Source of the DNA: Pseudomonas sp. B33.4
Lineage (GTDB): Bacteria; Pseudomonadota; Gammaproteobacteria; Pseudomonadales; Pseudomonadaceae
Direction of reading: 5' to 3'
Assembly: GCF_034555375.1 (NCBI RefSeq)
Contig: NZ_CP140706.1
Span: 6,272,001 to 6,336,000 of the forward strand
Length of the DNA stretch: 64,000 nt
The translations under genes were made by a program, and so were the position numbers. The notes under the pieces are model-generated. The model did not search any database. It was given only the letters and a program-made list of their open reading frames with translations, and was not told the DNA's origin. Positions 54,518 through 57,132 of the stretch are shown here, piece after piece (positions within the stretch are counted from its first letter, which is position 1; each line of letters starts with the position of its first letter).

Positions 54518-55264
54518 CTACAGCCCCTGCATCATCTTGCGCACACCGGCCACATGGCGACGACTGACAATCAGCGCATCACCATTCAGACCTTTGAGGA
54601 ACAGCTGGAAATGCCCCAGCGGCGTGCGTTGCAGTCGTTCAATGCGATCGCGGGCGACCAGTGCGTTGCGGTGGATACGCACGAAGCGTTCGCCGAATTC
54701 GTCTTCAAGGGCTTTGAGCGGTTCGTCCAGCAGCACCTCACCGGCTTCGTGACGCAGGGTCACGTATTTGTGGTCGGCAATGAAATAGACCACCTGATCC
54801 AGCGGGATCAGTTCGATGCCTTTGCGGGTGCGCGCACTGATGTGGCTGCGCGGCCCGGTGCCACTTTCGGCAGCGGGACGGGTCAGGGCCGAGAGTTGCG
54901 CCCGATTGGGACGTTCAGCCCGTTTCAGGGCGTCATGCAGATGTTCGGTTCGCACGGGTTTCACCACATAGCCCACGGCGCTGGCCTGCAGGGCTTCCAC
55001 GGCAAATTCATCGGGGCTGGTGCAAAACACCACGGCCGGCGGCGTTTCGCGTTCGCACAGACGGGCAGCAACCTGCAAGCCATCGAGGCCCGGCATGCGG
55101 ATATCGAGTAGCACGATATCCGGCTTGTGGCTGTCGATCAGTGCCAACGCCTCTTCGCCATTCGTGGCGCTGGGCTCCAGAACTGTATAACCCTCAAGCT
55201 CACTCACCATTCGGCTGAGGCGCTCGCGAGCCATGGGTTCGTCATCAACGATCAGGACATTCAT
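54518..55264 (-). CDS. algR: AlgR, LytTR-type response regulator
   Basis: A 248-residue regulator, the same length as P. aeruginosa AlgR. The receiver domain has the acidic pair of VLIVDDEPMARERL, the phospho-acceptor D54 in IVLLDIRMPG, and K105 or so in VGYVVKPVRT. The LytTR DNA-binding domain occupies about residues 140-248 (VVYFIADHKYVTLRH, RFVRIHRNALVARDRIERL). ATG 55264 overlaps the stop codon of the upstream algZ relic. The protein looks intact while its usual kinase gene is degraded. Confidence 0.96.
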   Translation of the reverse strand: MNVLIVDDEPMARERLSRMVSELEGYTVLEPSATNGEEALALIDSHKPDIVLLDIRMPGLDGLQVAARLCERETPPAVVFCTSPDEFAVEALQASAVGYVVKPVRTEHLHDALKRAERPNRAQLSALTRPAAESGTGPRSHISARTRKGIELIPLDQVVYFIADHKYVTLRHEAGEVLLDEPLKALEDEFGERFVRIHRNALVARDRIERLQRTPLGHFQLFLKGLNGDALIVSRRHVAGVRKMMQGL

Positions 55265-55622
55265 ATTGCGCTGGATTCCTGCGTGAGTCTCGCACAAGGA
55301 TAGCGTAGACAGGTGAAGTGACGTCCGTCACCGCGATCCACGCTAAGACTAGCCCGAGCGCCAAAAAGTGCCGTACGTCGGCCAGCAATATTTGCCAGTG
55401 TCCGGGTCGTACTGCTCGAAGCCCGCTGTTTCCTGCGTTTCTCACGGCGATTGCCGAAGGACAATTACACCCACCCCCCTCTTCTTATAGTCGGCGGCCA
55501 GACCTTTGCGCGGTCCGCAGCTGCGTCGACCCTTATGTCCAACTGTAGACGTTCGTCGGGCCGATATTGCTCAATCGAAAAATATCCTTGCGCAAAACCG
55601 CCGCGGTCAGCGCCGACTATGG
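55261..55622 (-). pseudogene. algZ: Degraded algZ (fimS) sensor histidine kinase
   Basis: An intact algZ is about 1.07 kb and ends where algR starts. Here only 473 bp separate algR from argH. In one minus-strand frame two blocks of AlgZ-like sequence remain: [20 protein letters not shown] (from about 55584 down) and LANIAGRRTALFGARASLSV, continuing to DGRHFTCLRYPCARLTQE (about 55404-55264). An in-frame TAA at 55465-55467 separates them. The stretch that should hold the kinase N-box is missing, and the N-terminal membrane part and phospho-histidine region are gone. The stop still overlaps algR as ATGA. The remaining bases 55623-55737 show only argH upstream sequence. Comparison with AlgZ is from memory. 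Confidence 0.82.
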
Positions 55623-55737
55623 CGCAGACAATGAGAAAAAAACGTATCGACCAGTGTCAACGACAGGATTGGCAACCCTGTTATTATCCGCGCCAGCGTT
55701 TCACGCCTTTTTTCTTCAAGCCGATACGAGCGAATTC

Positions 55738-57132
55738 ATGAGCACTGACAAGACCAATCAGTCCTGGGGCGGCCGCTTCAGTGAACCCGTCGACGCCTTC
55801 GTCGCCCGCTTCACCGCCTCCGTCACTTTCGACCAGCGCCTGTATCGCCACGACATCATGGGCTCGATCGCCCACGCCACCATGCTGGCCAAGGTCGGCG
55901 TGCTGACCGATGCCGAGCGCGACAGCATCATCGATGGCCTGAAGACCATTCAGGGCGAAATCGAGGCCGGCCAGTTCGACTGGCGCATCGACCTCGAAGA
56001 CGTGCACATGAACATCGAAGCACGCCTGACCGACCGCATCGGCGTCACCGGTAAAAAGCTGCACACCGGGCGTAGCCGTAACGACCAGGTCGCCACCGAC
56101 ATCCGCCTGTGGCTGCGTGACGAGATTGATCTGATCCTCGCCGAAATCACCCGCCTGCAAAAAGGCCTGCTCGAGCAAGCCGAGCGCGAAGCCGCGAGCA
56201 TCATGCCGGGCTTCACTCACTTGCAGACTGCACAGCCGGTAACCTTCGGGCACCACATGCTGGCCTGGTTCGAAATGCTCAGCCGCGACTACGAGCGTCT
56301 GGTCGACTGCCGCAAACGCACCAATCGCATGCCACTGGGCAGCGCCGCGCTGGCCGGCACCACCTACCCGATCGACCGTGAATACACCGCGCAACTGTTA
56401 GGCTTCGACGCAGTGGGCGGCAACTCGCTGGACAACGTTTCCGATCGCGATTTCGCCATCGAATTCTGCTCGGCCGCGAGCATCGCGATGATGCACCTGT
56501 CGCGCTTCTCCGAAGAGCTGGTGCTGTGGACCAGCGCGCAGTTCCAGTTCATCGATCTGCCGGACCGCTTCTGCACCGGCAGCTCGATCATGCCGCAAAA
56601 GAAAAACCCCGACGTGCCAGAGCTGGTACGCGGCAAGACCGGCCGTGTGTTCGGCGCACTGATGGGCCTGCTGACCCTGATGAAAGGCCAGCCACTGGCC
56701 TACAACAAGGACAACCAGGAAGACAAAGAGCCGCTGTTCGACGCCGCCGATACCCTGCGCGACTCGCTGCGGGCCTTTGCCGACATGATCCCGGCGATCA
56801 AACCGAAGCACGCGATCATGCGTGAAGCGGCGCTGCGTGGCTTCTCCACCGCAACCGATCTGGCGGATTACCTGGTGCGCCGTGGTCTGCCATTCCGTGA
56901 TTGCCACGAAATCGTTGGCCACGCGGTGAAATACGGCGTGGACACCGGTAAGGATCTGGCCGAGATGAGCCTGGAAGAACTGCGTCAGTTCAGCGACCAG
57001 ATCGAGCAGGATGTGTTTGCCGTGCTGACACTGGAAGGCTCGGTGAATGCTCGCGACCATATCGGCGGCACTGCGCCGGCGCAGGTCAAGGCTGCTGTGG
57101 TGCGTGGTCAAGCGCTGATCGCCAGCCGCTAA
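55738..57132 (+). CDS. argH: Argininosuccinate lyase
   Basis: A 464-residue enzyme making arginine and fumarate in the last step of arginine synthesis. It begins [37 protein letters not shown] near residue 110 and [20 protein letters not shown] near residue 280 are the fumarase/lyase superfamily signatures; the latter includes the catalytic serine loop. The open frame extends upstream to 55567, but the conserved N terminus fixes ATG 55738. A TATTAT -10-like box at 55682-55687 suits a promoter. The gene is divergent from the algZ relic. Confidence 0.96.

Follow-up and report, generated by a model that had tools for sequence, protein, structure and literature searches.

In a lineage of Pseudomonas that includes the genome studied here, algZ, which encodes a LytS-type sensor kinase, disappeared long ago. 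Sequence comparison makes it probable that promoters of the neighbouring gene algR, once embedded in the kinase gene, were kept and that the switch face of the AlgR receiver was released, the function of these promoters and the present input of AlgR being what we infer from the pattern of conservation. The locus lies in a 64,000-nucleotide stretch of DNA (the window) from a soil bacterium with a P. koreensis/P. fluorescens-like genome, which is available as one contig of 6.6 Mb with 100% completeness.

Within the window, algR (54518..55264, minus strand) encodes a response regulator of 248 aa with the REC and LytTR domains (PF00072, E 8.3e-28; PF04397, E 1.2e-20; both over cut-off), and argH (55738..57132, plus strand) is its divergent neighbour. 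The initial annotation had described an AlgR with D54 and a full DNA-binding domain next to a short gap without algZ, and all of this was found: D54 and the complete LytTR domain are present, and the gap measures exactly 473 bp. The two blocks that it had read as AlgZ-like are real remnants in a single minus-strand frame (tblastn with intact AlgZ proteins, E 2.7e-29), the first aligning to AlgZ AQRYLSIEQYRLGNRLQLD and the second, NIAGRRTALFGARASLSVDRGDGRHFTCLRYPCARLTQESSAI, to the AlgZ C-terminus, with its last 22 residues identical to those of another locus (L042). Its further claims of a TAA stop between the blocks and of a missing N-box likewise stand, the stretch LTLQPLLENALIYG and with it the AlgZ/FimS hallmark LQPLLENALIYG being absent there. 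The H-box and the membrane part are also gone, as it had stated: in the window, tblastn gave no significant AlgZ match further upstream than about codon 205, with a single chance-level one (E 0.07) before the first block. In its coordinates, the remnant comprises AlgZ codons ~205-222 (55540..55593), a strongly eroded piece of codons ~262-281 (55438..55492) that is better preserved in many other kinase-less species, and the C-terminus, codons ~299-340 (55261..55390), which carries no visible coding constraint; all three are on the minus strand, and the remnant, like intact algZ, ends by overlapping algR at ATGA. A second AlgZ was sought elsewhere in the complete genome, where the PF06580 His_kinase domain with its H-box (AlgZ/FimS, LytS type) has 0 matches, and AlgR is by this test an orphan, as had been proposed.

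The loss is far broader than the strain-level decay first assumed. Among 298 sampled genomes of the genus, algR is present in 296 (E below 1e-90) and a PF06580 kinase in 89, leaving 209 without one. The locus was compared in 129 cases including the window, one of which (L180) had no argH match and enters no count. In the remaining 128, the algR-argH gaps fall into two size classes, 297-656 bp (83 loci) and 1157-1449 bp (45 loci), with no intermediates. One large-gap locus from another genus (L179) is counted among the 45 and left out of the 44 genus loci with a large gap, in all of which an open algZ frame reaches the algR start. The 83 kinase-less loci represent 83 of the 209 kinase-less genomes, were taken from the listed best algR matches and are therefore biased to close relatives; the 44 kinase-bearing loci represent 44 of the 89 kinase-bearing genus genomes. 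Named records give a similar picture, with 71 of the best 80 matches lacking algZ and 9 retaining it, in a set that favours near relatives and shares genomes with the genus locus set. Within these best 80, the kinase-less records include ones with the labels P. koreensis, P. jessenii, P. mandelii, P. brassicacearum and P. fluorescens, and the kinase-bearing ones include P. syringae GAW0119, P. tremae, P. graminis and P. fuscovaginae.

Loss of the kinase is accompanied by a marked change in the AlgR receiver. The triplet T82-A83-H84 is found in 44/44 kinase-bearing genus loci vs 1/83 kinase-less loci, the exception being L113, and among the best 80 named records, whose genomes overlap the genus set, it occurs in 9/9 kinase-bearing and 0/71 kinase-less ones. 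In the window these residues are T-S-P instead of the T-A-H of kinase-paired AlgR. Thirteen AlgR sites have at most one change among the 44 kinase-bearing loci and at least six among the 83 kinase-less ones, and 10 of the 13 fall at residues 82-105 (hypergeometric 2.6e-9, post hoc); furthermore, the 39 parsimony changes at residues 82-84 vs none have a probability of about 2e-7 under the overall receiver rate. These TAH statistics are all post hoc, because the sites were found by scanning. A shift in rate between the receiver and the DNA-binding domain was also considered and set aside as not robust, being significant over all rows, P 0.42 in matched groups and reversed in one small clade.

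The strongest alternative is that AlgR is still phosphorylated, by another kinase or by acetyl phosphate, and that the changes at residues 82-84 re-tune its receiver to the new donor. The retention of D8, D54 and K102 in 83/83 kinase-less loci, including the window, is in keeping with this reading, which is a serious contender if a somewhat improbable one. Against it, T82, which in response regulators belongs to the receiver switch, is replaced in 22/83 kinase-less loci, and residue 84 takes nine different letters, H included, a pattern that points to release rather than to one new fit. Since the TAH triplet was released and D8, D54 and K102 stayed, AlgR would be controlled mainly by its amount, or else by another phosphodonor.

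Equally telling is the DNA that was kept. The C-terminal block contains, at 55344..55371 on the minus strand, the sequence GCACTT-N17-TCTTA, which has the GAACTT-like and TCTGA-like elements, 16-17 nt apart, of AlgU-dependent promoters and starts 107 bp before the algR ATG. The pattern GCACTT-N17-TCTNA occurs at exactly this distance in 75/83 kinase-less and 43/45 kinase-bearing loci, and an AlgU-type promoter lies at -106 or -107 in 80/80 of the best-matching named records. Intact algZ genes use the rare codons GCA and CTT here in 43/44 cases each (usages 0.16 and 0.08), and the genome encodes an RpoE/AlgU-family sigma factor (323 bits, over cut-off). An AlgU promoter embedded in algZ is already known from P. 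aeruginosa: the relevant section of a review (PMC4064291) gives it as GCACTT-N17-TCTGA with a start at -73, so that the promoter in the window differs from it by one base and occupies the same place, and a passage in PMC8787478 describes disruption of P. aeruginosa algZ via the start codon, sparing the algR promoter in the algZ 3' region. By analogy with what is reported for P. aeruginosa, the C-terminal block would thus comprise an AlgU-dependent promoter and leader of algR. The eight kinase-less loci without the exact pattern (L101, L116, L121, L123, L124, L129, L130 and L131) form one small clade with an altered AlgU -35 element; GAATCT-N16-TCTGA takes its place in 5 of them, which has the look of a retuned promoter.

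The mode of change in this block differs between the two groups of loci. Over the last 107 nt, the 75 kinase-less loci show 0.94, 0.78 and 0.94 changes per site at codon positions 1, 2 and 3, vs 0.72, 0.89 and 3.2 in the 44 kinase-bearing loci; in the same 75 rows, algR third positions change at 7.7 (receiver) and 12.5 (DNA-binding domain) per site, roughly tenfold faster. Equal and slow change at the three former codon positions indicates that what is constrained is the nucleic acid (DNA or RNA) and not a peptide. The constraint extends through the algR leader, formed by the former last algZ codons (55265..55343, minus strand), whose 79 nt changed, by parsimony, 1.19 times per site among the 83 kinase-less loci.

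It is conceivable, if unlikely, that this leader acts as an RNA element (a structure, an RsmA or Hfq target, or a riboregulator) beyond its role as promoter DNA. Conservation over 79 nt far exceeds what a ribosome-binding site would occupy, as such an element would predict. However, the single-sequence fold is unremarkable (z -1.7, with 11/200 shuffles equally good), 30/200 column shuffles fold as well as the consensus, and no Rfam match exceeds the gathering score; an RNA target recognised by sequence only may coexist with the promoter. Selection for a short C-terminal AlgZ peptide, such as the 67-codon TTG frame at 55261-55464, or for translation coupled to algR via ATGA, would suit the gapless run into the ancestral ATGA overlap in the rows viewed and the constant -107 spacing in 75/83 kinase-less loci, but is very improbable given the equal change at all codon positions in kinase-less loci, vs 3.2 at the third in kinase-bearing ones, the in-frame stop upstream in the window and the lack of any protein family match.

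The preferred reading, retention of algR control DNA, also accounts for which parts of algZ survive. AlgZ codons 208-222 and 323-340 are detectable in 83/83 kinase-less loci and codons 271-300 in 86-90% of them, vs 6-9% for codons 236-256 and 0-13% for codons 1-195. In the 44 intact algZ genes, against an expectation derived from algZ's own codon usage, synonymous diversity averages 0.68 over the gene, is reduced in codons 212-223 to 0.41 (P 0.003 by column permutation; P 0.01 when codons 1-300 are scanned) and in codons 303-340 to 0.31 (0/20,000 permutations as low), and rises to 0.90 at codons 232-263, the part most often deleted within the kept region. A middle dip at codons 270-281 reaches P 0.08 only, and little of this part survives in the window. 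Codon by codon, retention is inversely correlated with synonymous diversity (rho -0.70 for codons 205-300, -0.29 for the entire gene), neighbouring codons not being independent. The DNA singled out by its retention in kinase-less loci is thus also the DNA singled out, in a separate comparison, by low synonymous diversity in intact genes.

The initial annotation had regarded the blocks as decaying relics, a description that finds no support: few parts of the gap evolve as slowly, and both blocks coincide with low synonymous diversity in intact algZ. Plain pseudogene decay, in which the two blocks would be chance survivors of neutral deletion, can point to the in-frame stop, the deletions and the free change of 55588-55642 (14.5 changes per site among kinase-less loci, poorly aligned). 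Set against these are the constraint above background, the persistence of the same two stretches in 83/83 loci with most of the remainder gone, the ~0.9 changes per site in the C-terminal 107 nt vs 7.7-12.5 at algR third positions in the same 75 rows, and the low synonymous diversity of the same stretches in intact genes, which together leave neutral decay a most improbable account. An assembly or sequencing error at algR-argH has practically no chance of being the explanation, because near relatives have the same gap size and remnants, the gap recurs in many other assemblies, and the genome is a single contig with 100% completeness.

The upstream block, by which is meant the remnant of codons ~205-222, holds a second bipartite motif, TTGAGC-N17-CGTCTACAGT (55542..55574, minus strand). 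Every one of the 83 kinase-less gaps contains CGTCTACAGT a single time, and in 75/83 it is preceded, at a distance of exactly 17 nt, by TTGAGC or TTGAAC; the 17-nt spacer has 44 versions with a mean pairwise identity of 0.67, and the distance from the motif to the algR start ranges from 150 to 368 bp. A motif whose ends are conserved, whose spacer varies in sequence but not in length and whose distance to algR is free has the look of a promoter. Moreover, its right part (55537-55551) is the slowest stretch compared, at 0.40 changes per site, and intact algZ genes carry the codons CTA in 42/44 (usage 0.055) and TTG in 43/44 (usage 0.21) at this place. TTGA[G/A]C-N17-CGTCTACAGT would represent a second promoter or promoter-like site. 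The form TTGA[G/A]C-N17-CGTC may resemble ECF-type promoters; the literature passages covered contained no SigX consensus. Mismatch searches of the genome point to no regulon: the left half has no second copy with up to 3 mismatches, and the right half has 24 further weak matches vs 75 for a reversed control pattern.

Several other assignments of the upstream block were considered and set aside. An AlgR box has a near match in the window (ACGTTCGTC), but conservation falls on columns other than those of the box. Over the 83 loci, the closest likeness of the block to CCGTTCGTC has 3-4 mismatches in 66 loci, 2 mismatches in 10 loci and 1 mismatch in 7 loci, and over the whole gap a match with at most one mismatch occurs in 21/83 loci vs 59/500 shuffles of the window gap. 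A FleQ box matches at best with 5 mismatches, which is usual in shuffles, and its spacing is broken in 19/83 loci. Likenesses to sigma-54 and Anr/FNR sites were weighed by eye only.

In the explanation proposed here, the ancestral algZ would have held, besides its protein, two control sites for algR. After loss of the kinase, deletions would have removed most of the DNA without a second job, and the present algR-argH DNA would be an algR promoter region carved from former algZ coding sequence. AlgR would then depend on AlgU-type envelope-stress transcription and a second promoter, and no longer on AlgZ; its TAH triplet at residues 82-84 would have been released after the kinase was lost, with D8, D54 and K102 staying in place.

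On a two-gene tree, 2 or 3 changes of kinase state are needed, but the AU test does not reject one single clade of all kinase-less loci (p-AU 0.21 with all 83 loci, 0.195 without L113), so that the tree is compatible with one loss or several. The gap of L113 (genome G224) contains a freshly broken algZ, whose last 147 codons are 86% identical to an intact gene, with an in-frame stop in an algZ piece further up and no H-box region found; its AlgR still has TAH. This wreck is much fresher than that of the window, which suggests a separate, recent loss, and L113 is possibly an intermediate of algZ loss. Three further kinase-less loci (L186, L188 and L213), labelled P. viridiflava, P. chlororaphis and P. 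syringae, encode an AlgR 95-100% like that of the window; other P. viridiflava and P. syringae records have the kinase, and some species labels may be wrong.

In the portions covered of papers naming AlgR or AlgZ, no statement that algZ is absent from most Pseudomonas was met, which, given this limited coverage, is weak evidence that none exists. One paper lists an algZ in P. fluorescens PCL1751 in the section consulted (PMC4599888), and this gene may be amrZ; an excerpt of another lists PFLU4744 as algZ/amrZ (PMC4395868). AmrZ, formerly also called AlgZ, resembles the AlgZ kinase in name only, and this naming may explain the 'algZ' in P. fluorescens gene lists.

The locus shares with the P. 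aeruginosa AlgZ(FimS)/AlgR system an algR with D54 and LytTR, a divergent argH (by a passage of PMC8787478) and the place of the AlgU-type promoter (by the promoter section of PMC4064291), and differs from it in lacking the kinase gene and in having T-S-P in its receiver, vs T-A-H in all 44 kinase-bearing genus loci. The same regulator occurs in the P. syringae FimS/AlgR system, where, in the part of PMC2222644 concerned, the kinase gene is present; records labelled P. syringae GAW0119, P. tremae and P. graminis have a full-size gap and TAH. AlgR is of the same regulator type as that of the LytS/LytTR and BtsS/BtsR pairs (PF06580 plus PF04397), scoring below cut-off against the NCBIfam BtsR model (133.5 of 246 bits). 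The 17 LytS-type-kinase-paired regulators outside the genus among the collected loci have T-A-[Y/H/F], unlike the window AlgR, which has neither that motif nor a paired kinase.

Much is known of how AlgZR regulates alginate, pili and iron genes in P. aeruginosa, and the same wiring is readily assumed for other pseudomonads; with about 7 in 10 sampled genus genomes lacking a PF06580 sensor, such a transfer is unsafe. A plausible but tentative generalisation is a switch of AlgR input in the larger part of the genus, from phosphorylation by AlgZ to control of amount via promoters once inside the kinase gene, with the receiver face at residues 82-105 freed, the promoter DNA not, and residues 82-84 marking the presence of the kinase from sequence. 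The locus can also be viewed as a natural experiment on overlapping information, in which the host coding sequence is lost and the neighbour's promoters stay, and the change at AlgR 82-84 points to residues that a LytS-type kinase may demand of the regulator with which it is paired, a list open to testing. Apart from the embedded AlgU promoter of P. aeruginosa, none of these features (kinase absence from the majority of sampled genus genomes, retention of embedded sites after gene loss, the second motif and the TAH signature) was met in the portions of the literature covered.

Two side observations concern other genes. The initial annotation had predicted that loss of AlgZ would alter the control of alginate, motility or heme genes. 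In P. aeruginosa, an AlgZR-controlled operon encodes a PilY1-family protein, according to an excerpt of PMC8787478, and such a protein is still encoded in this genome outside the window (G000:C1:5618841-5619827). PilY1 is present in 85/89 kinase-bearing and 87/209 kinase-less genomes, and missing from 4 and 122, counts that are uncorrected for kinship, and its candidacy as a co-lost AlgZ partner was dropped on that ground. On the argH side of the gap, 55628-55737 is conserved around GATAATAACAGGGTTGC in kinase-less and several kinase-bearing species and is possibly the argH promoter, a candidate for which is the sigma-70-like ACGACA-N16-TATTAT at 55660..55687 on the plus strand, identified by consensus match only.
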